A stretch of DNA of 50,294 nt from an uncultured archaeon (GTDB lineage Archaea; Thermoproteota; Nitrososphaeria; JACIWG01). Location of the stretch: assembly GCA_938034445.1 (NCBI GenBank), contig CALHLD010000002.1, positions 1-50,294 on the forward strand, read 5' to 3'. The position numbers were made by a program, and so were the translations under genes. The stretch's first letter is position 1; each line of letters opens with the position of its first letter. The notes beneath the pieces were generated by a model, which worked only from the letters and a program-made list of their open reading frames with translations, was not told the origin of the DNA and did no database searches. Shown in pieces: positions 1,926 to 41,517 of this stretch.

Positions 1926-3662
1926 CTATTCTCTTTCAATTACTTTATCTAATGCTGTACCCATTGATGCATCAGCGTATCTATCTACAATAATATCGAC
2001 TACAGCAGGCCTTCTATTTGTCTCAGAATATTCTACAGCCCACTTGAATGTCTCCTTTATCTCCTCTATCCTTGTAACCCTTCTTCCGGCCGCACCGAAT
2101 GCTTCAGCAAACTTTACAAAATCCGCCATCTGTCCATCGTACCATATGTCAACGGCGAACTCAAAGTTGTAGAGGTACTTTTCCTGCTGTCTAATTAGTG
2201 AAAGGTACCCATTGTTTATAATAATTATGATAAATGGTATATTATACTGGCATGCTACTGCGAACTCTTCACAGCAGAAGCCGAAGCCATAATCTCCTGT
2301 TACTGCAACTACAAGCTTATCTGGTCTAGCAATTTTTGCGCCTATAGCTGCAGGCAGATCCCAGCCTAATGGTCCCGCTCCACCTGGAACAAGATAGTGT
2401 CTTGGATAGAATATTTCCTGCATTTGAGAAGACCATATTTGATTCAAGCCTATTGTGGTAACAAATATTGTGTCTTTTGGAAAGAATTCGTTTATTTCCT
2501 TCATCACCCTCTGCGGCTTTATAGGAATCTGTTCATAGTCCATTTTCCTAGCCATCTTAACACGCAGCTCTGGAATGCTCTTAACCCACTGCGAAGATTT
2601 TCTCTGTTGGACGATCGATAAGAGAATAGAATGTCCTGGATTCGGTGAAACCTCCTCAGCCCTCCGTTTTACCTCCTCAAGCATCATCTGTAAAGTTATT
2701 TTTGCGTCTCCAACAATCCTAAGGTCTGGAGAAAATATTCTACCAATTTGGGTTGGCTCAATGTCTACATGAATAAACTTTCTTCCCCTACGATATACCT
2801 CTAAGTCCCCAGTATGTCTGTCAGAAAATCTACATCCTACAGCAAAAACTAGATCTGATTCTAAAAACACTTTATTTCCTAATGGTGTATTACATATTAC
2901 TCCAACCTGGCCTGCATAGAGTGGATGGTCAGCTGGTACACCACCCTTACCCATCAAGCTTGTAACAATAGGAACCTGCAAGAATTCTGCAAGTTCAATA
3001 AACTCTCTTGTCGCATCAGCTATAATGACTCCACCACCCAATAGGAACACTGGCCGTTCAGCTGCAAGTATCATATCAACAGCCTTCCTAATCTGTCTCC
3101 AGCTGGGCCTAGGCTTAAACACTTCAAGCGAACGGTCTCCTTCTGGATCATATTCTATTTCAGTCCTTTGAACATCTAAAGGCAAATCAATGAGAACCGG
3201 GCCAGGTCTACCCTCTCTAGCAATCCTGAATGCTTCGCGAAAGATCATGGGAATGTGCGATGGCTCCATTACACACCAGCTCTTTTTCGTTATAGGCTTC
3301 ACTATTTCAGCAATTTCAGTTGCCTGAAAAGCATCCTTTCCAAGCTGAGCTCTCACATTTTGGCCTGTTATTGCAACGATTGGCACAGCATCAACTTTCG
3401 CAGCATAAAGTCCTGTTACCATGTTTGTTCCAGCAGGCCCAGATGTACCCACACAAACTCCAACCTTACCACTTGCCCTAGCATAGCCGTCCGCAGCATG
3501 CACTCCCCCCTCCTCATGTCTTACCGTATAATGTTTTATCCTCTTCGAATTTGCTAAGGCCTTATAGAATGGAAGTATTCCAGCACCAGGTATTCCAAAG
3601 ATTACCTCTACACCTTCGTCCTCTAATATTTTCACAGCCGCCTCCATTGCTGGCATCTTCAT
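1926..3662 (-). CDS. Glyoxylate carboligase-like ThDP enzyme (AHAS/Gcl superfamily)
   Basis: 578 residues with the three-domain ThDP-enzyme layout: Pyr domain (1-180), central domain (about 190-340), PP domain (380-560). It resembles glyoxylate carboligase (tartronate-semialdehyde synthase) more than acetolactate synthase. Shared stretches include LGTSGPAGT-type (here VGTSGPAGTNM), SDRHTGDLEVY, HVDIEPTQIGR, TTIGLNQI, AGPLGWDLPAAIG, NNGYLSLIRQ and the C-terminal SMGTALDKVIE. The cofactor motif reads GDYGFGF. Unlike E. coli Gcl, which has Val51, residue 50 here is the canonical Glu (VRHEEGGVH). Either glyoxylate condensation or an acetolactate-type reaction is possible. The true acetolactate synthase lies at 35.0 kb beside ilvN, which argues for a different job here. 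Two glyoxylate-reductase-like genes occur at 18.5-20.5 kb. Confidence 0.7.
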   Translation of the reverse strand: MKMPAMEAAVKILEDEGVEVIFGIPGAGILPFYKALANSKRIKHYTVRHEEGGVHAADGYARASGKVGVCVGTSGPAGTNMVTGLYAAKVDAVPIVAITGQNVRAQLGKDAFQATEIAEIVKPITKKSWCVMEPSHIPMIFREAFRIAREGRPGPVLIDLPLDVQRTEIEYDPEGDRSLEVFKPRPSWRQIRKAVDMILAAERPVFLLGGGVIIADATREFIELAEFLQVPIVTSLMGKGGVPADHPLYAGQVGVICNTPLGNKVFLESDLVFAVGCRFSDRHTGDLEVYRRGRKFIHVDIEPTQIGRIFSPDLRIVGDAKITLQMMLEEVKRRAEEVSPNPGHSILLSIVQQRKSSQWVKSIPELRVKMARKMDYEQIPIKPQRVMKEINEFFPKDTIFVTTIGLNQIWSSQMQEIFYPRHYLVPGGAGPLGWDLPAAIGAKIARPDKLVVAVTGDYGFGFCCEEFAVACQYNIPFIIIIINNGYLSLIRQQEKYLYNFEFAVDIWYDGQMADFVKFAEAFGAAGRRVTRIEEIKETFKWAVEYSETNRRPAVVDIIVDRYADASMGTALDKVIERE

Positions 3663-23428: not shown

Positions 23429-25096
23429 TTATTCTATAACACATCCTTTATCCGCTGAACTAACCAACTTCGCATATCTTCTAAGGTAGCTTGTGGCCTT
23501 TATCTTATGTTCTGGACGTCTCCAGTACTTTAATCGTTCCCTAATTTCTTCGCTTGAAAGTTTAACATTTAAAACACGTTTCCTAATATCTATTTCAATA
23601 ATATCTCCATTTTGTAAAACGGCTATTGGTCCACCATCAAAGGCTTCTGGTGAAACATGTCCAATACATGGTCCTCTTGTTCCTCCAGAAAACCTACCAT
23701 CTGTAACTAATGCTACTGAATCACTTAAACCCATTCCAACTATAGCTGAAGTAGGTGAAAGCATTTCTCTCATCCCAGGTCCACCCTTTGGCCCCTCATA
23801 CCTTATTACTATCACCTGCCCCTTTTCTATTCTCCCACCAAAGATGGCTTTTGCACATTCCTCTTCAGAATCGAAAACTATAGCTGGGCCTTTAAAGTAA
23901 AAATTCTTTTCAGATAGGGCTGCAGTTTTTATAACAGCTCCATTTGGTGCAAGGTTTCCTTTCAAAACAGCTATTCCCCCTTCATTGTGTAAAGGATTTT
24001 CTAGTGGTCGAATAACTTGTGTGTCTAAAATTTTAGCCTCCAATATATTTTCTTTAACAGTTTTTCCTGTAACAGTTAACTGGTCTAAGTCAAGAAATTT
24101 GCTTATGTTTTTCATAATAGCCGGTATTCCTCCTGCCCTATCTAGGTCTTCAAGCATATACTTTCCTCCAGGGTAAACGTCACATACGTGTGGAACCTTC
24201 CTGCTTATTTCATCAAAAACTGAAAGATCTATTTCTATTCCAAGCTCCCTTGCTACAGCTGTCAAGTGCAGGATTGTGTTTGTTGAGCCTCCTAAAGCCA
24301 TGTCGACGGCTATAGCGTTCTCAAAAGACTTCCTTTTCATAATATCTGATGGCCTTAGGTTTTCGTAAACCATTTTAACGATTCTTTCTCCAGACTCCTT
24401 CGCTATTCTAATCTTTAGAGAACTTGTGGCCGGTGTTGTAGCACAGTAGGGGAGTGACATTCCAAGTGCTTCGGTTAAACAGCTCATTGTGTTGGCTGTG
24501 AAGAGGCCACTGCATGAGCCACATGTTGGGCACGCAACATCCTCCAACCTTTTAAGCTCCTCCTCGCCTATTCTTCCAATACTATAGTCTCCAACAGCCT
24601 CAAAGACTGAAATTAGTCCAACCTTTCTTCCTTCATAGAAGCCTGCAAGCATTGGTCCTCCTGTAACAAATATTGTTGGAATGTCTAGTCTTGCAGCGGC
24701 AATCAACATTCCAGGTGTTATCTTATCACAGTTTGTTAGCATAACCATTCCATCAAACTTATGTGCCTCTATCATAGCCTCTATTGAATCTGCTATAAGC
24801 TCTCTGGAAGGTAGGGAATACTTCATTCCACTATGGCCCATCGCTATTCCATCACATATTGCTATGGTATTGAATTCGAAAGGTACTCCTCCTGCGTTTC
24901 TGACACCAGCTTTTATTGCATCGGCTAAAGTATTTAAATGGATATGACCTGGCACAATATTTGTGTAACTGTTTACTATTGCAATGAAAGGTTTTTCAAG
25001 CTCGTTGTCTGTTACTCCAACAGCTTTCAAAAGAGATCTGTGAGGCGCTCTCTCTGCACCATATTTTATAATACTACTTTTCAATTTTTCTTGCAT
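23429..25096 (-). CDS. ilvD: Dihydroxy-acid dehydratase
   Basis: 555 residues. Cluster and substrate motifs are all present: [59 protein letters not shown] and [10 protein letters not shown]. Near the C-terminus are [15 protein letters not shown] and [22 protein letters not shown]. The three cysteines expected for an Fe-S cluster are there. It converts 2,3-dihydroxyisovalerate and its methylvalerate homologue to the 2-oxoacids of valine and isoleucine synthesis. It is divergent from ilvE, with a shared repeat-rich promoter, rather than inside the ilv-leu operon. Confidence 0.96.
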
Positions 25097-32659: not shown

Positions 32660-33589
32660 TCACCCTTTAACGAAACTTAAAATATTTTTAGTTAAAGCTC
32701 CCACATTTAACCCATATTTTTCAAGAAGTTGTAGATAGTTTCTAGAAGATTCGCCGAACATATCAGGCACACCTAACCTTTTAACCCTAAAACCTTTCTC
32801 AGAAAGCATTTCACAAACAGCTGAACCCATTCCACCAATTATATTATGTTCTTCGATTGTGACAACCTTGTCGGATTTTTCACAGACTTTCTTGAGCTCC
32901 TTGTCCAGGGGTTTAATTGTGTGAAGGTCCACTACAGAGGCCTGAAAGCCATATTCAAGAAGTTTCCTTCTAACTTCAAGTGAAATGTGTACCATTAGAC
33001 CACATGCTATAATTGTTAAGTCCGATCCTTCTTCTAAAATATTTGCTTTACCAAAGACAATATCCTTCTCACCTTCATATATTTTTGGCGCATAATCTCT
33101 TCCGAGCCTCATGTAACAGGGGCCATTCAAGCGAATAAGCTGTTTTAGTAGACTTCTTATTGAAATCGGGTCTGATGGCACAACAACATTCATTCCAGGC
33201 AAAACTCTCATTAACGCAATATCTTCTAAACACTGGTGAGAAGATCCGTCAGCAAAATCGCTTAACCCCGAATGTGTTGCAACAATTTTAACATTAAGAC
33301 TGTCTCTTGCAATAGTATTTCTTATCTGCTCCCAAGCCCTTAAAATAAACATAGAAAATCCTGTGATTATTGGAATAAACCCCTCAAGCGCTAAACCAGC
33401 AGCTATACCCGCCATATCCTGCTCACTTATTCCTACATTAATAAACCTGTTAGGAAACATGTTCCTAAATAGGAATGTTTTAGTGGAAGCACTGACATCA
33501 GAATCTAACACAATTACATTATCGTTTTCTGCTCCTATTTCAATCAAAGTTTCTCCAAACGTTTCTCTTGCACTTATCAAATTAACCAT
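32660..33589 (-). CDS. Transketolase, C-terminal subunit
   Basis: About 309 residues from the ATG at 33589 (MVNLISARETFGETLIEIG). A frame from 33652 would place 21 unlikely residues in front, and the 33589 ATG overlaps the stop of the N-terminal subunit (ATGGTTAA). NVIVLDSDVSASTKTFLF and INVGISEQDMAGIAAGLALEGF contain the catalytic Glu of the pyrimidine domain. TKIVATHSGLSDF-type (here VKIVATHSGLSDFADGSSHQCLEDIALMR) and VVTIEEHNIIGGMGSAVCE mark the rest. It pairs with the upstream N-terminal half to form a split transketolase that makes erythrose 4-phosphate for aroF. Confidence 0.92.
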   Translation of the reverse strand: MVNLISARETFGETLIEIGAENDNVIVLDSDVSASTKTFLFRNMFPNRFINVGISEQDMAGIAAGLALEGFIPIITGFSMFILRAWEQIRNTIARDSLNVKIVATHSGLSDFADGSSHQCLEDIALMRVLPGMNVVVPSDPISIRSLLKQLIRLNGPCYMRLGRDYAPKIYEGEKDIVFGKANILEEGSDLTIIACGLMVHISLEVRRKLLEYGFQASVVDLHTIKPLDKELKKVCEKSDKVVTIEEHNIIGGMGSAVCEMLSEKGFRVKRLGVPDMFGESSRNYLQLLEKYGLNVGALTKNILSFVKG

Positions 33590-34637
33590 TATTTCCCACC
33601 ATTTTATTATAATCTTCTTGACTTGGAATGTAATGGAATATTTTTTTGTCAATATACTCTATTCCACCGTTTCTTTCAGTGGAGGCAATTATCACTGTCG
33701 GCCTTTTCTGGTAAACCTTTATCTCTTGAAGAATGGAAACTAATTCTTCAAACCTTTTTCCATCGACTTCAACCGTGTCCCATCCAAAAGAAATCCACTT
33801 CTCCTTTAAAGGCTCTAAACATTTTATTTCCTCTGTAGCACCATTCATTTGATAGAAGTTTCTGTCGACTATAGCTATCAAATTATCTAACTTATATGTT
33901 GATGCACTCATTGCAGCCTCCCAAACCTGCCCCTCATCAAGTTCGCCGTCTCCAAGTAAGACTATAACTTTGCCATTACTATTCTTCAACTTTTTTCCAA
34001 GGGCTACGCCTACACCTATCGATAAACCCTGTCCAAGAGAGCCTGTAGAAACTAATGTTTCTTTGATAAACCTTTTGTCAGGATGTCCTTGAAGTCTGGA
34101 CCCAAGCTCACAAAAGTAAGGAAGCTCATTTTCTTCTATAATACCCTCATCTACTAATACAGCGTATAGTGCAAGTGAAGCATGTCCTTTGCTTAAGACA
34201 AAAGAGTTTTCAGAACCTACAAGGTTTGGTCTAAAAACCCTGAATACCGCTAAAATTATGTTTGCTGAAGAAAGGGAAGAAGGCAGGTGTCCAGTTTTAG
34301 AACTGTATGCTTGTAAAAGTATTTTTGATCTAACATTTTGCACAAATTTTTTATCATTTTCACTTAAAACATACGTCGAACAGTCTACCGGTCTATCATT
34401 TATTTCTGAAGAAAGAATCTGTAGAACGATCTCTCCTGCTCCAGTGAGCTTTACCGGTTTAGGATCACCAATTTTGCCATATGAAACTAAACCTTTTTCT
34501 CTCAAAATTTTAAGGTTCAACTTTAAGGTTGAAAGCGGTATGCCCGTCTTTTTAGAAACCATCTTTAGAAAGGATGATGCAGTAAGATCAGCGTTTTTAG
34601 AAACCAAACGTAATATAAGCGCCTGATTTTTGTTCAA
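33582..34637 (-). CDS. Transketolase N-terminal subunit with fused winged-helix DNA-binding domain
   Basis: As written, 351 residues from a TTG at 34637. Residues 4-74 form a winged helix-turn-helix (NQALILRLVSK, TGIPLSTLKLNLKILREKGLVSYG, PVKLTGAGEIVL). Residues about 90-345 are the ThDP-binding half of transketolase: SKTGHLPSSLSSANII, SKGHASLALYAVL, GSRLQGHPDKR, STGSLGQGLSIGVG, LLGDGELDEGQVWEAAM and DRNFYQMNGAT. The frame stays open to 34787 and reads protein-like (about ETVAGEYGRPIPISIEPLSS) but contains no ATG, GTG or TTG. The real start may therefore be a rare codon in that stretch. The enzyme may bind DNA and regulate the operon it heads. Confidence 0.8.
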   Translation of the reverse strand: MNKNQALILRLVSKNADLTASSFLKMVSKKTGIPLSTLKLNLKILREKGLVSYGKIGDPKPVKLTGAGEIVLQILSSEINDRPVDCSTYVLSENDKKFVQNVRSKILLQAYSSKTGHLPSSLSSANIILAVFRVFRPNLVGSENSFVLSKGHASLALYAVLVDEGIIEENELPYFCELGSRLQGHPDKRFIKETLVSTGSLGQGLSIGVGVALGKKLKNSNGKVIVLLGDGELDEGQVWEAAMSASTYKLDNLIAIVDRNFYQMNGATEEIKCLEPLKEKWISFGWDTVEVDGKRFEELVSILQEIKVYQKRPTVIIASTERNGGIEYIDKKIFHYIPSQEDYNKMVGNNG

Positions 34638-34787: not shown

Positions 34788-34862
34788 TTACAATTTTTAA
34801 ATTCCTAAATTTTTAGTAGAAATTGTTAATTTTTTTATAGCCATAATATGTTGGCCGAAAAG

Positions 34863-34870
34863 TTTATTAA
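34863..34870 (+). promoter_or_regulatory. TATA box of the ilv-leu-pheA operon
   Basis: TTTATTAA is preceded by purine-rich CCGAAAAG, which resembles a TFB recognition element. Its centre lies about 23-26 bases before 34889-34892, predicting transcription from at or next to the ATG of the leader reading frame. Between box and predicted start sits an inverted repeat, CATGTG (34873-34878) and CACATG (34886-34891). CCCATG (34871-34876) can also pair with CATGGG (34899-34904). Either may be a repressor site. Confidence 0.5.
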
Positions 34871-34888
34871 CCCATGTGTATTCTCCAC

Positions 34889-34945
34889 ATGCCAACAACA
34901 TGGGCAATTTCGCTATCTCAAATAATATTGTTGTGTATATGTTAG
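34889..34945 (+). CDS. Putative ilv leader peptide (18 aa)
   Basis: ATG at 34889 opens an 18-codon frame, MPTTWAISLSQIILLCIC, ending TAG at 34943-34945. Four codons are Ile and three are Leu, with Ile-Ile-Leu-Leu in a row (34922-34933), just before a hairpin and the branched-chain operon. The predicted transcription start coincides with its ATG, so it could be translated as a leaderless message. It resembles the leader peptides of bacterial ilv/leu attenuators. AT-rich DNA yields Ile and Leu codons often, so translation and function need proof. Confidence 0.45.
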   Translation: MPTTWAISLSQIILLCIC

Positions 34946-34964
34946 GTCTACTTGTAGTAGACCT
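34944..34964 (+). terminator. Hairpin followed by T-run between leader frame and ilvB (candidate attenuator)
   Basis: AGGTCTAC (34944-34951) and GTAGACCT (34957-34964) are perfect complements around a 5-base loop TTGTA, and four T residues end at 34967. The 5' arm begins inside the leader-frame stop codon. In RNA this is an intrinsic-terminator-like stem-loop 27-56 bases before ilvB. As DNA it is a 21-base palindrome that could bind a regulator. Upstream CAACAA (34893-34898) can pair with TTGTTG (34928-34933) as an early competing stem. Confidence 0.5.
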
Positions 34965-34990
34965 TTTACAAATTATTATTCTTTAGGGAG

Positions 34991-36742
34991 GTGATTTCAA
35001 TAGCCAAACTCTCTGGCGCCCAGGCCCTCATCGAGTCCCTCAAGAAAGAGGGTGTTGAAGTAATATTTGGTTTACCTGGTGGAGCAATACTACCAGTATA
35101 CGATGTCCTTTATGATTCGAATATAAGACATGTTCTTGTAAAGCATGAACAATCTGCTGCCCACATGGCTGATGGTTATGCAAGAGTGAGTGGCAGGCCA
35201 GGAATCTGTATGGCCACTTCTGGACCTGGTGCAACTAACCTTGTTACTGGAATAGCTACAGCTTACATGGATTCTTCCCCACTAATAGCCGTAACCGGGC
35301 AAGTCGCTAAGGCGATGATAGGAAAAGACGCCTTTCAAGAAGCGGACATAATGGGCATCACCACTTCTATAACAAAATATAATTTTCAACCGAGGACTGC
35401 TTCTGAAGTTCCAAAGGTTGTTAGGCTGGCCTTTCAGCTTGCGTCATCAGGAAGGCCTGGTCCTATACTAATAGACTTGTCAAGAGACGTTCAAACGGAA
35501 GTTGACGAAATATCGTTCACAGAAAATATTGGTTTTTCTAGATTAAAGCATAATATTGTGCCACATCCATTGCAGGTAGAAAAGGCTGCATCCATGCTCT
35601 TGAATGCTGAAAGACCCGTTATTCTGGCAGGAGGTGGTGTAATAATCTCGAATGCTTGGCAACAGCTTCTTGCCTTGGCTGAACTTCTAATGGTCCCTGT
35701 TGCCACCACATTAATGGGCAAAGGATGTTTTCCTGAAAATCATCCACTTTCCCTAGGTGTGGTCGGCATGCACGGAACCTATGAAGCAAACAAGACTATT
35801 CTTGAAGCTGATGTCCTACTTGCTGTAGGGTGCAGATTTTCTGATAGGACAACATGTAATGTTTCAGAGTTTTGTCCAGACGCAAAAATAATACATGTTG
35901 ATGTTGATGCCTCTGAAATAGGCAAAAATAGGAAGGTCGATGTCCCAATAGTAGGTGATGCCGGTGAAACTCTTTCAAAAATTTATGATATGATTGTTAA
36001 AAGCTTGTGTAGGAAGGAAAAAAGCCTTTGGCTAAAGAGGATAGAGGAGATTAGAAGCGAGAGTGAAAATGTTTACAGTAGTATTCAAGAAAGTAACCTA
36101 TCACCTATAAAAATTTTGAAGGAACTTAGGGAAATACTGCCATATGATGCTATAGTTACCACAGAAGTGGGCCAAAATCAGATGTGGGCATCCCTGTATT
36201 TTAAAGTATTAAAGCCTAGAACATTTATTACATCAGGAGGCCTTGGTACAATGGGATTCGGTTTTCCAGCATCTCTTGGTGCAAAGGTTGCAAAACCGGA
36301 TACCCCTGTTTTAGATATTGCTGGAGATGGAAGTTTTATGATGACATCAAACATGCTTGTAACTTCTGTTAATGAAAACATTCCTGTAATGGTCGTTATT
36401 TTAAATAATTCTATGCTTGGTATGGTTGCACAGTGGCAGAGACTATTTTATGGTAGAAGATATTCTGCAGTAAAGTTAGTTAATCCTGACTTCGTTAAGA
36501 TTGCTGAAGCATGTGGTGCAATGGGCGTTCGTATTGGTTCTTTGGAAGAGTTAAAAAATGCTATTGGACAAGCGTTAAAAAGCGAGGTTACAACAGTTAT
36601 AGATGTTCCAATTTCACCAGAAGAGGATGTTTTCCCAATGGTTCCTCCTGGAAAAGGCTTGAAGGCGATGATATATGGTGCTCTTAAAACATCTTCTGCC
36701 TTAGCAAAAAGGTCTGAACGTCTGAAGGAGATGATGGATTAA
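34991..36742 (+). CDS. ilvB: Acetolactate synthase, large (catalytic) subunit
   Basis: About 580 residues. SGAQALIESLKKEGVEVIFGLPGGAILPVYDVL and VKHEQSAAHMADGYARVSG (catalytic Glu) form the Pyr domain. TSGPGATNLVTGIATAYMDSSPLIAVTGQV, GKDAFQEADIMGIT, and IAGDGSFMMTSNMLVTSVNENIPVMVVILNNSMLGMVAQWQ (ThDP motif) follow. It condenses two pyruvates, or pyruvate and 2-oxobutyrate. The GTG at 34991 overlaps the perfect ribosome-binding site GGGAGGTGA (34986-34994), so the working start is probably ATA at 35000, giving MAKLSGAQ, five bases after that site. Only this or ATT is available in frame. It heads a seven-gene operon behind a putative attenuator. Confidence 0.96.
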   Translation: MISIAKLSGAQALIESLKKEGVEVIFGLPGGAILPVYDVLYDSNIRHVLVKHEQSAAHMADGYARVSGRPGICMATSGPGATNLVTGIATAYMDSSPLIAVTGQVAKAMIGKDAFQEADIMGITTSITKYNFQPRTASEVPKVVRLAFQLASSGRPGPILIDLSRDVQTEVDEISFTENIGFSRLKHNIVPHPLQVEKAASMLLNAERPVILAGGGVIISNAWQQLLALAELLMVPVATTLMGKGCFPENHPLSLGVVGMHGTYEANKTILEADVLLAVGCRFSDRTTCNVSEFCPDAKIIHVDVDASEIGKNRKVDVPIVGDAGETLSKIYDMIVKSLCRKEKSLWLKRIEEIRSESENVYSSIQESNLSPIKILKELREILPYDAIVTTEVGQNQMWASLYFKVLKPRTFITSGGLGTMGFGFPASLGAKVAKPDTPVLDIAGDGSFMMTSNMLVTSVNENIPVMVVILNNSMLGMVAQWQRLFYGRRYSAVKLVNPDFVKIAEACGAMGVRIGSLEELKNAIGQALKSEVTTVIDVPISPEEDVFPMVPPGKGLKAMIYGALKTSSALAKRSERLKEMMD

Positions 36743-37246
36743 ATGCTTTCTGTAAATGATAAAGGAGAAAATTATATTGTGTCCATACTTGTAGAAAACA
36801 AGCCGGGTGTCCTATATAGGGTCTCAAACCTTTTTAGACGCAGAAACTTTAACATAGAAAGTATCTCAGTAGGTCCTACGGAGAAGAGAGAGTTTTCGAG
36901 GATGACGATAACTTTAAATGGTGATGATGCAACTGTCGAGCAGTTGGTTAAGCAGCTGGCTAAGATAATAGATGTGGTAAAAATATCTCTTCTTAATCCA
37001 AAGAATACGATTTTAAGGGAACTTGCTCTAATTAAACTGTACGCTAAAGATTCTAGAGCTAGATCTGATATACTAAATTATGCTCAAATTTTTAAAGGCA
37101 AGATAGTTGACACTACAGAAGATGCCATGACTGTTGAAGTTGTAGGCACACCTGATAAGATAAACGCTTTCATAAAGATTGCTTTATCTTTTGGAATTAA
37201 GGAGATGGCTAGAACAGGATTAACAGCTTTGGAGAGAGGTGGTTGA
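36743..37246 (+). CDS. ilvN: Acetolactate synthase, small regulatory subunit
   Basis: 167 residues. ACT domain at about 9-80: [37 protein letters not shown] is the standard valine-binding signature. The C-terminal domain includes [10 protein letters not shown] and [29 protein letters not shown]. It confers feedback inhibition by branched-chain amino acids and stimulates IlvB. Its ATG follows the ilvB stop with no gap, so translation is probably coupled. Length matches the archaeal form. Confidence 0.95.
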
Positions 37247-37247
37247 A

Positions 37248-38237
37248 TTGGCTAAAATATACTATGATTGTGATGCTGATTTAAAAGTCTTGGAAGGGAA
37301 GAAGGTTGCTATAATAGGCTATGGAAGTCAAGGTCGTGCACAAGCCCTAAACCTAAGAGATTCAGGAGTAAATGTAATACTAGGGTTAAGAGAAAATGGG
37401 TCTTCTTGGAAGAAGGCTATAGAAGATGGTTTTAAACCGTATCCAATAAGAGCGGCTGCAGAAGAAGGGGACATAGTGCACATGCTTATACCGGACCTAG
37501 AGCAACCTCATGTTTACAGTACCCAGATTGCTCCAGTGTTAAAGGAGGGGAAAACGCTGGCATTTTCTCATGGTTTCAATATACATTACAAGCTTATTGT
37601 TCCTCCACCATATGTTGATGTTATCATGGTCGCGCCTAAAAGTCCGGGAAAGAGTATGCGAGACGCTTTCTTGAAAGGCTTTGGTGTACCAGCACTTATC
37701 GCCGTTGAACAAGACTTTAGTGGTAGAGGAAAAGAAACAGCTCTAGCAATATGTAGGGGACTAGGGTGCACTAGGGCAGGCGTTCTTGAAACATCCTTTA
37801 AGGAAGAAACTGAAACAGATCTATTTGGAGAGCAGGCTGTACTTGTTGGCGGCCTTATGAGCCTAATAAATACAGGATTCCAAGTTCTAGTAGAAGAAGG
37901 TTACCAGCCTGAGCTAGCATACTTTGAAGTTTGCAATGAAATGAAACTTATAATGGATCTTGTCTATCAAAGTGGTTTTATTGGCATGTTAAAAGGTATA
38001 TCGGATACAGCGAAATATGGTGGCATAACGGTCGGCCCAAAGGTTATAGACGAGCATGTGAAAGAGAATATGAAGAAGGTTCTGAAGGCGATTCAAAGTG
38101 GCGATTTTGCTAAAGAATGGGTTGGAGCGCCTGAGGAAAGTCGCCGTAGGCTTAACTCTTTAATGGAAGATGTTTCAAAATATGATATAGAAAGGGTTGG
38201 AAAGCTGATAAGGAGAATGGCTGGGATCGAAAAATGA
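37248..38237 (+). CDS. ilvC: Ketol-acid reductoisomerase
   Basis: About 329 residues. I place the start at TTG 37248 ([19 protein letters not shown]), the usual IlvC N-terminus; AGGTGG lies five bases before it, and the GTG at 37239 falls inside that site. [30 protein letters not shown] is the NADPH motif. [40 protein letters not shown] and [14 protein letters not shown] hold the metal-binding acids. It isomerises and reduces acetolactate or acetohydroxybutyrate. It begins just past the ilvN stop and overlaps leuA by 4 bases. Confidence 0.96.
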
Positions 38238-39754
38238 GCTCTTTTGAATATGTTGAAATTTTTGATACAACATTAAGGGATGGTGAACAGACTCCAGGGG
38301 TATCCTTAACCCCTCAAGAAAAGCTTGAAATAGCTAAGCAACTTGATAAGCTTGGTGTAAATGCTATAGAAGCCGGATTCCCTATTGCCTCTCAAGGGGA
38401 AAGGGATGCGGTTAAGCTTATTGTTAAAGAAGGTTTAAATGCTGAAGTCTATGCCCTCTCAAGGGTAAACAAAAACGATATCGATGCAGTCCTTTCATGT
38501 GATGTTAAAAACATACACCTGTTCATAGCAACTTCGGACATCCATTTAAATTACAAGCTAAAACTTTCACGAGAGCAGGCTTTACAGAAGGCTGTCGAAG
38601 GCGTTGAGTATGCTAAAAGTCATGGACTGAATATAGAGTTTTCTGCAGAAGATGCTACAAGATCTGATCTAGACTATCTCAAAAAAGTGTATAAGAGTGT
38701 AGTTGAAGCTGGGGCGAATAGGGTTGACATACCAGATACCGTAGGTGTAATGACACCTTTAAAGATGTCGAATATAGTTAGAGAAGTTAAAAGTGTTGTT
38801 GATGTCCCAATAAGTGTACATTGTCATAACGACTTCGGGTTAGCTGTAGCAAATACCCTTGCAGCAATAGAAGCTGGTGCAAAAAGAGCTCATGTGACAG
38901 TAAACGGGATAGGGGAGCGTGCTGGAAACGCTGCCCTAGAGGAAGTTGTTATGGCACTTCATTCACTCTATGGTATAAAAACTAGGATAAACACACAACT
39001 AATATATGCAACGTCAAAGCTTGTTTCACAGCTTACTGGAGTAATGATCCAACCTAACAAGGCGATTGTTGGAGAAAACGCTTTTGGACACGAGTCCGGA
39101 ATCCACACACACGGTATACTTTCTATGCCTCTCACATATGAGCCTATAAGTCCAGAAGTTGTGGGCAGGAGGAGATGGATTCAGGCTGGAAAGCATGCGG
39201 GCGCCCACGGTATCCTTGCAAAGTTACAGGAAATGGGCTGGCAGCCTACAGAAGAACAGTTGAAGGAGATAACGAATAGGGTTAAAGAGTTAGGTGATAA
39301 GGGTAAAACTGTTACAGACACAGACCTCTCCGCGATCGCAAGGTCAATAATAGGAAGAGGTTCTGAAGAGAAGGTGATAGACCTTCTAGATTTGGCTGTC
39401 ATGACAGGTTTTAAAGTTGTTCCAACAGCTTCAGTTAAGCTTGTTCTTGAAGGAAAAGAGTATATTGCAGCTGAAACAGGAGTAGGTCCTGTTGATGCTG
39501 CAGTGAAAGCAATACAAAAGGTTACAGATAGTCTAGCAAATATAAGATTAAAGGAATATCGTCTTGAAGCAATTACAGGAGGATCTGATGCTCTTGCTGA
39601 AGTTATTGTAAAGGTTGAAGATAGGGATGGAAATGTTATGTCAGCAAGGGCTGCTGGAGAAGATATTGTTATAGCAAGTGTCGAGGCAATGATAAACGGT
39701 ATAAACGAAATACTTAGGAAAAGGAAGAGGATGCAAACTAGTATAAGCGAATAG
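38234..39754 (+). CDS. leuA: 2-isopropylmalate synthase
   Basis: 506 residues. [35 protein letters not shown] is the family start. [24 protein letters not shown] and [43 protein letters not shown] hold the metal ligands (HxH). The C-terminal LeuA dimer/regulatory domain occupies about 385-500 and suggests leucine feedback inhibition. It condenses acetyl-CoA with 2-oxoisovalerate. Citramalate synthase is a close relative, but leuC, leuD and the ilv genes directly around it favour the leucine pathway. It may serve both reactions if ilvA is absent from the genome. Confidence 0.9.
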
Positions 39755-39763
39755 TGTTACTAA

Positions 39764-41029
39764 ATGAACGTTATTGAAAAGATTTTAGCCAACGCTTCTG
39801 GTAAAAGGGAAGTTGTTCCAGGAGAAATAGTGGAAGCAAACATAGACTGCGCAATGGTAAACGAAATAACAGGCCATCTAACAATAAAATATATTCAAGA
39901 GCTTGGCGTGGAAAGGGTTTGGAACCCTGACAAGATAGTCATGGTAATCGACCACACGGTGCCTGCAGCAAGCGTCGAAGCAGCAGAACTTCATAAGATA
40001 ATGAGAAGGTTTGCTAAAGCACAAAATATAAAATATTTTTATGATATTGGATTTGGTGGCATAGCTCATCAGATTATGGTTGAAAAGGGGCATGTTGTTC
40101 CAGGGAATGTTATAGTAGGCGCTGACTCACACACATGCACATATGGTGCCCTTGGAGCATTTGCTACAGGAATAGGTTCAACTGAAATGGCTGCCGTTTT
40201 TGTGAAGGGGAAACTTTGGTTCAAGGTTCCGAAGGTGATTAGAGTGGCTGTGAAAGGAAGTTTTAAAGAATATGTTACAGCAAAAGACCTCTTCTTAAAG
40301 GTTGCAGAAATTTTGGGCGAAAATGGTGCAAACTATAGGGGTCTAGAATTTAGAGGACCAACAGTAGAAAGTATGAGTGTACATGAGCGGATGACTGTAT
40401 GTAATATGGCTATAGAAGTTGGTGCAAAAACTGGTATCGTTGAAGCAGACGATAAAACATTGGCATATCTAAAAGGTAGAGTAAATAAGAGCTTCCAAAT
40501 AATAAAGGGTGATGATGACAACTCCTATGAGCGTTCTCTAGAAATAGATGTATCAAACCTTGAACCTCTTATAGCGTGTCCGGGTTCTGTTGCCAATGTT
40601 AAACCAGTCTCTGAAGTTGAGGGTGTTGAAGTGGATCAAGTGTTTATAGGCTCGTGCACTAATGGTAGGCTTGAAGATCTAAAGATTGCTGCAAAAATAT
40701 TAAAGGGGCGAAAGGTGAAGGAAGGAACCAGACTAGTAATTGTTCCAGCATCACAGGAAGTCTATCTTGAAGCACTCAAGGAAGGCTTGATTGAAACATT
40801 TATATCCTCAGGTGCAATTGTAGCGAATCCCACATGTGGTGCATGCTACGGAGGCCACATAGGTGTACTCGCCTCAGATGAAGTGTGTGTTAGCACAACT
40901 AACAGGAACTTTGTTGGGAGAATGGGAAGCCCTAAGTCTAAAGTCTATCTAGCTTCTCCCGCAACTGCCGCCGCATCAGCTCTAGAGGGTAAGATAAAGG
41001 ATCCAACAACATTAAGGTGGTCTACTTGA
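39764..41029 (+). CDS. leuC: 3-isopropylmalate dehydratase, large subunit
   Basis: 421 residues of the aconitase family, archaeal LeuC type. [19 protein letters not shown] and [48 protein letters not shown] form the N-terminal domains. The [4Fe-4S] cluster ligands lie in [11 protein letters not shown] and [13 protein letters not shown]. It isomerises isopropylmalate together with LeuD. Archaeal homologues can also act as homoaconitase or citraconate hydratase. It starts 9 bases after leuA, and its stop overlaps leuD. Confidence 0.94.
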
Positions 41030-41517
41030 AAATTTCTGGAAAGGTTATCAAATATGGTGACAACATTAACACAGACCTAATTATACCAGGAAAATACCTG
41101 ACCCTAACAGATCCACAGGAAATGGCAAAGCATGCAATGGAAGGTATAGACCCCTCATTTACTAAAAAGTGTAAGGATTCCATAATTGTGGCAGGAGAAA
41201 ATTTTGGATGTGGTTCAAGCAGAGAACAGGCCCCACTAGCACTAAAGCATGCTGGAGTTAAGTGCGTGGTTGCAAAATCGTTTGCAAGAATATTTTATAG
41301 AAATGCTATAAACATAGGTCTTCCACTGGTTGAATGCGAAAACATCTGGGATAAGGTTCAAGAAGGTAACATGGTTGAAGTAGATCTTGAAACTGGAACC
41401 CTTACAGTATCAGATAAAAATGTTAAAGTTAGCGCTCAACCACTTCCAAAATTCATGCTCGACATTCTTAAAGAGGGAGGTCTAATTAATCTTTTAAGGA
41501 AGGAGGCTGGAAAATGA
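41026..41517 (+). CDS. leuD: 3-isopropylmalate dehydratase, small subunit
   Basis: About 163 residues from TTG 41026 ([25 protein letters not shown]). AGGTGG at 41015-41020 is a good ribosome-binding site for it, whereas a GTG at 41017 would overlap that site. [45 protein letters not shown] is the swivelling-domain signature. It forms the substrate-specific subunit with LeuC. Start and leuC stop overlap as TTGA, and its stop overlaps the pheA ATG. Confidence 0.94.

Follow-up and report, generated by a model that had tools for sequence, protein, structure and literature searches.

The ilv-leu operon of an uncultured archaeon of the class Nitrososphaeria is preceded by a short leader ORF dense in Ile, Leu and Val codons and by an RNA hairpin, and comparison with related loci strongly supports the view that this arrangement controls the operon. 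The window, i.e., the whole stretch of DNA that was analysed, is 50,294 nucleotides long. We consider it quite probable that the best explanation of the conserved pattern is a cis-acting, ribosome-sensing leader, through which the operon would be controlled by charged Ile-, Leu- and Val-tRNA. Three things suggest sensing of these tRNAs by a ribosome: the composition of the leader, its confinement to ilvB, and a hairpin adjacent to the run of codons. The idea of such a leader and hairpin controlling an archaeal ilv-leu operon was put forward in the original prediction from a single sequence, and the comparative evidence bears it out, while the reading frame, the competing stem and the terminator described there mostly do not hold.

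Profile matches assign the genes 3' of the leader to the synthesis of Ile, Leu and Val (Table 1). The start codon of ilvB is probably ATA at 35000-35002 rather than the GTG given in the ORF list, because that GTG sits within the Shine-Dalgarno sequence, and because in the congeneric locus L002 an in-frame TAA is found immediately 5' of the ATA; the spacing between the Shine-Dalgarno sequence and the ATA (both within 34987-35002) is compatible with this start. AUA start codons are very unusual. The ilvD gene (24047-24994, minus strand) is also in the window, but is not part of the ilv-leu operon and lacks a leader; G004 and G010 have ilvD divergent from ilvB.

Table 1. Features of the ilv-leu operon and of its leader region, in window coordinates.
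Feature	Position	Strand	Evidence and remarks
TATA box, TTTATTAA	34863..34870	+	Sequence; 37 nt to leader ORF, within the 31-40 nt mode of relatives
18-codon frame of the original prediction, MPTTWAISLSQIILLCIC	34889..34945	+	Open here; broken in L002 and L003
Conserved leader ORF, MGNFAISNNIVVYMLGLLVVDLLQIIIL, 28 codons + stop	34900..34986	+	Open and stop-aligned in three species
Leader ORF segment partly complementary to ilvB Shine-Dalgarno sequence	34909..34918	+	Minimum-energy fold; weak evidence
Dense Leu/Val/Ile codons of leader, TTA GGT CTA CTT GTA GTA GAC	34942..34983	+	Translation
Same stretch, continued, CTT TTA CAA ATT ATT ATT CTT	34942..34983	+	ILV-rich 3' end common to relatives
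RNA hairpin, AGGUCUAC-UUGUA-GUAGACCU	34944..34964	+	Compensatory changes over 8 sequences; folding
U-rich stretch 3' of hairpin, a possible termination site	34964..34983	+	Sequence; T-runs not enriched class-wide
ilvB Shine-Dalgarno sequence, GGAGGTGAT	34987..34995	+	Sequence; directly 3' of leader stop
ilvB, acetolactate synthase large subunit	35000..36742	+	TIGR00118, 781.6 bits
ilvN, acetolactate synthase small subunit	36743..37246	+	TIGR00119
ilvC, ketol-acid reductoisomerase	37239..38237	+	TIGR00465
leuA-type 2-isopropylmalate synthase	38234..39754	+	NF002085, TIGR02090
leuC	39764..41029	+	TIGR02086
leuD	41017..41517	+	TIGR02087

The conserved leader ORF runs from ATG at 34900 to TAG at 34986, and its stop abuts the Shine-Dalgarno sequence of ilvB. 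The counterparts in the same genus are MGTFTISNKINVYKVGLLQVDLLQIIIL in L002 and MSTFEIVVNGPEYTICLLDVGILSIILIL in L003, whose IlvB proteins are, respectively, 89% and 79% identical to that of the window. The leader ORFs of the three species (L001, L002 and L003) are 28, 28 and 29 codons long, so that the sole length difference is one whole codon, and in all three the stop adjoins the Shine-Dalgarno sequence. In the L001-L002 pair, pN/pS is 0.57 in the leader frame, and the two shifted frames give 2.8 and 3.6; purifying selection on the leader peptide is weak (pN/pS 0.57-0.99).

This ORF overlaps the 18-codon frame at 34889-34945 that was originally proposed as the leader. That frame, with its TAG at 34943-34945, exists as read, and so do the TATA box at 34863-34870, the ATG at 34889, the ribosome-binding site and ilvB. 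In both relatives tested the frame is disrupted: in L002 an indel removes the ATG and a TAA occurs early, and in L003 the frame is broken by TAG or TAA. It is probably not the leader, and we reject it, for lack of conservation, as an accident of one species; the conservation among relatives that was expected of it is found instead in the overlapping element at 34900-34986. The ATG at 34889, 26 nt from the TATA box, coincides exactly with the predicted transcription start site, and the conserved ATG at 34900 fits the spacing common in relatives. The stop of the 18-codon frame lies within the 5' arm of the hairpin by coincidence, yet in most relatives the true stop is indeed at or beside that arm. 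Upstream of the TATA box, CCGAAAAG resembles a BRE.

At the DNA level the hairpin is AGGTCTAC-TTGTA-GTAGACCT, a perfect 8-bp palindrome at 34944-34964 followed, as originally described, by TTTT (34964-34967), of which the first T belongs to the stem; in the window's genus it is located inside the conserved leader ORF. Rarity of such a hairpin is ruled out as evidence, as the window contains 15 perfect 8-bp hairpins with loops of 3-8 nt (overlaps counted) against 6-16 in Markov sequences. With the hairpin count at the chance level and the 18-codon frame disrupted in congeners, these features mean little when taken alone. The compensatory base changes that had been suggested as a check were found: in the window's genus and its closest sister family, both partners of a pair have changed without loss of pairing (3 pairs, 7 cells), and covariation is 0.371 versus 0.228 in shuffled alignments (0/500) in a small alignment of 8 sequences. 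G-U pairs are present, and the sequence of the hairpin changes while the pairing stays. The early stem CAACAA/TTGTTG, thought to compete with the hairpin, is present in the window; as a competing antiterminator it is rejected, being absent from L002 and not conserved in the genus. Complementarity between the leader ORF and the Shine-Dalgarno sequence, similar to that listed in Table 1, can be seen by eye also in L002.

We gathered ilvB upstream regions from genomes of the window's class, the one that holds ammonia-oxidising archaea, taking the ilvB starts from alignments. In each region we considered every ORF of 12-50 codons within 200 nt, counted Ile, Leu and Val among its 12 C-terminal residues, and took the highest count as the score, with 7 or more as the threshold for a leader. 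Ile/Leu/Val-rich leader ORFs were found in 65 of the 93 upstream regions. The same score was reached before 5 of 140 other genes (3.6%), one of the five being this very leader, and in 5.7% of Markov sequences. The difference between ilvB and control leader scores has a Mann-Whitney p of 4.6e-26, which overstates independence, as the loci are related and the sample is heavy in one ammonia-oxidiser family. Similar leaders were looked for at trpE (0/30), ilvD (0/30) and hisG (4/30 by the same score), and no Trp- or His-rich leaders were found before trpE or hisG. The low scores of these and other genes, and the lack of Trp- and His-rich leaders at trpE and hisG, indicate that the element belongs to ilvB.

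Examples of the leaders are MDKRLSLTRLLNIDVLVVPLLVLLL in L004, MSERVSASSSSVALIVLLIVV in L006 and MEQLEASSKLVSIIRRLNVILLIIV in L010 of the same family, MTYILTQPFLVLVELVL in L016, and MEDVEIDYKYQGSVLSLEVLLKVVLLSSVVLQ in L128. In the last nine residues, Leu accounts for 42%, Val for 23% and Ile for 10% (75% together), a share that is partly circular, as the ORFs, and likewise the controls, were picked by it; the scarcity of Phe (0.7%), Met (1.3%) and Ala (3%) was not selected for, and argues for codons cognate to the amino acids made by the operon rather than for a generic hydrophobic peptide. Families f6 and f9 of the class are without a clear leader. In f9 (L142-L146), TATA boxes are found 5' of ilvB, and several loci have Met-rich short ORFs made of ATG runs, not of Leu, Val or Ile codons.

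The distance from the TATA box to the leader start is 31-40 nt in most loci and 37 nt in the window, the distance from the TATA box to ilvB is variable (127-244 nt in most loci), and in most families 30-86 nt separate the leader stop from the start of the ilvB match. Archaeal transcription initiates about 26 nt 3' of the TATA box, so the leader ORF appears to be leaderless or nearly so; the promoter geometry thus suggests a leader mRNA with little or no 5' UTR.

Folding of the 65 leaders in 45-nt segments gave a z-score peak that coincides exactly with the leader stop (mean -1.71, 54% below -1.5), a second peak 45 nt 5' of the stop (-0.88), and values near 0 elsewhere. In most families the hairpin begins at or just 3' of the stop; its sequence is unrelated between families and its position is the same. 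In ammonia oxidisers the leader ORF contains another conserved stem, which does not overlap the stop hairpin. Family f16 likewise has a second conserved stem, and there TCCTCC in the leader is able to base-pair with the leader start or, as judged by eye, with the Shine-Dalgarno sequence of ilvB, an alternative pairing that possibly constitutes a switch. In several Nitrosopumilus-type leaders (L021, L179 and similar), the opening codons (for instance ATGAGCAC) are able to pair with the post-stop GTGCTCA, and a AATTTTAAC-n-TTAAAATT hairpin comes next, before ilvB; RNAalifold gave no consensus fold for these leaders.

Two ways in which the leader might act on ilvB were rejected as general features. 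The original prediction saw a terminator made of hairpin and T-run, but class-wide the longest T-run 3' of the stop averages 3.56 versus 3.09 in shuffles, and is not clearly enriched; in Archaeoglobi it is 4.38 versus 3.53, and the T-run after the hairpin is clear in single loci, such as L004. Sequestration of the Shine-Dalgarno sequence, relieved by a stalled ribosome, was modelled for the 65 leaders, with no consistent rise in exposure when the ribosome covers the Leu/Val/Ile run; such release is suggestive in L004, L010 and, by eye, f16.

The mechanism that we propose would begin with transcription from a site about 26 nt 3' of the TATA box. The resulting mRNA would have the leader ORF almost at its 5' end, and the ORF would be translated as a nearly leaderless message. 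As comparison of the loci makes apparent, Leu, Val and Ile codons form a run at the end of the ORF, beside the hairpin. By analogy with bacterial leaders, a shortage of charged Leu-, Val- or Ile-tRNA would stall the ribosome in this run, where it would cover or disrupt the hairpin and neighbouring pairings, and ilvB would be expressed; with charged tRNA plentiful, the ribosome would finish and leave, the hairpin would form, and ilvB expression would fall. The output may be exerted on transcription, through premature termination, or on the translation of ilvB, and we lean slightly toward the latter. The ORF of the window's genus continues across the hairpin up to the Shine-Dalgarno sequence of ilvB, which makes coupling between leader and ilvB translation likely, and which fits poorly with the simple model of a stalled ribosome blocking a terminator. 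How starvation would raise expression in this genus-specific variant is the least certain part of the model.

Other explanations of the same observations have to be considered. The position of the Leu/Val/Ile run at the extreme C-terminus, beside the stop, is where arrest peptides act, and the leader peptide might sense Leu, Val or another free metabolite inside the ribosome and stall it with no codon-by-codon sensing, in the manner of nascent-peptide arrest in TnaC and SpeFL. Arrest peptides usually require specific residues, whereas the leaders, composition aside, vary widely between families, and Leu, Val and Ile are freely interchanged, which renders this explanation unlikely. It is still harder to believe that the ORF encodes a small hydrophobic protein with a function of its own, placed 5' of ilvB by chance. 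Conservation of the ORF within families and weak purifying selection would agree with such a protein, but Phe, Met and Ala are nearly missing from its hydrophobic run of 9-12 residues, the N-termini are unrelated between families, the position is fixed relative to the TATA box, and there is a hairpin at the stop; we regard this as highly improbable.

The palindrome at 34944-34964 could instead be a DNA operator for a transcription factor, with the ORFs incidental: it is perfect, and archaeal regulators often bind near promoters. Its sequence, however, changes with the pairing kept, and among the pairs are G-U pairs, which a palindrome acting as DNA would not preserve; it is located about 75 nt 3' of the TATA box, and the enrichment of ORFs is independent of it, so that a role as operator seems very unlikely. 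We give about as little credence to simple translational coupling, in which leader translation would open the ribosome-binding site of ilvB and feed it ribosomes, without the leader acting as an amino-acid sensor. The direct junction of leader stop and Shine-Dalgarno sequence in the window's genus, and the weak start codon of ilvB there, probably ATA, are as coupling of this kind would have it; the Leu/Val/Ile composition and the restriction to ilvB are left unexplained, and a gap of 30-86 nt separates the stop from the ilvB match in most families. Sensing of charged tRNA by the leader ribosome is the reading that we retain.

Leaders of this kind are found also beyond the class. In Archaeoglobi, 24 of 28 ilvB genes have one, often ending in VVVQ, VVVC or VVLL and situated 21-43 nt 5' of ilvB. 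By the 200-nt score, they precede 2 of 29 ilvB genes in Thermoplasmatota, to which L340 may be added with a leader farther upstream, and 7 of 37 in other classes of Thermoproteota, where L278, L280 and L285 are convincing by eye; the complete crenarchaeal genomes sampled (L295-L311) yielded no convincing leader. On balance, we favour the view that archaea of at least three phyla would share an old and widespread ribosome-mediated attenuation of branched-chain synthesis, based on near-leaderless leader peptides, lacking a bacterial-style terminator, and perhaps acting via factor-dependent termination or control of ilvB initiation.

Attenuation by leader peptides is a textbook mechanism of bacteria, known from the ilvGMEDA, ilvBN and leu operons of E. 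coli; in its transcriptional form, the ribosome and RNA polymerase have to be closely coupled. If the system is conserved in ammonia oxidisers and Archaeoglobi, it would allow transcription-translation coupling in archaea to be tested on a natural example, and would represent a sensor of amino-acid shortage in organisms with poorly known regulation, of which the ammonia oxidisers are globally abundant. The archaeal element may work like a bacterial leader-peptide attenuator, with putative membership in the transcriptional-attenuator family. It shares with the bacterial ilv/leu attenuators a short leader ORF in which codons for the operon's products abound and a hairpin between the ORF and the first gene, and differs from them in its archaeal promoter, near-leaderless ORF and codon run abutting the stop and hairpin, as well as in having no general hairpin-plus-T-run terminator and no conserved antiterminator identified. 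Translation attenuators of the ermC/cat type, in which a stalled leader ribosome could rearrange RNA at the downstream ribosome-binding site, are a plausible parallel in f16; these sense antibiotics, and Shine-Dalgarno sequestration is not general in the archaeal element. In Corynebacterium, the ilvBNC operon has a ribosome-mediated attenuator (PMC11857589, PMC10272879), and the ilvB-II motif goes with a conserved uORF before ilvB in a branched-chain operon (PMC10272879). Such a uORF is shared with the archaeal element, but the motif is bacterial, and Rfam gave no match at the gathering threshold in the window and only chance-level miRNA matches in the leader. For a branched-chain leader peptide in archaea, no precedent was found in the literature searched, which describes bacterial leaders only and had subscription journals mostly outside its scope.

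Several other observations concern the biosynthetic genes of the window's genome and its relatives. No N-terminal domain of trpE was found in the window's genus or family (G000-G004), which do have DAHP synthase and prephenate dehydratase; the organisms may be tryptophan auxotrophs, or the assemblies may have gaps. The window's genome (G000) has five more genes of the acetolactate synthase/thiamine-diphosphate enzyme family, one of them at 2028-3659 on the minus strand. The ORF at 33585-34637 (minus strand) matches TK0271 family transcriptional activators at its N-terminus and the N-terminal half of transketolase in the remainder; the C-terminal half of transketolase is a separate ORF (32660-33652, minus strand), followed by aromatic-pathway genes.
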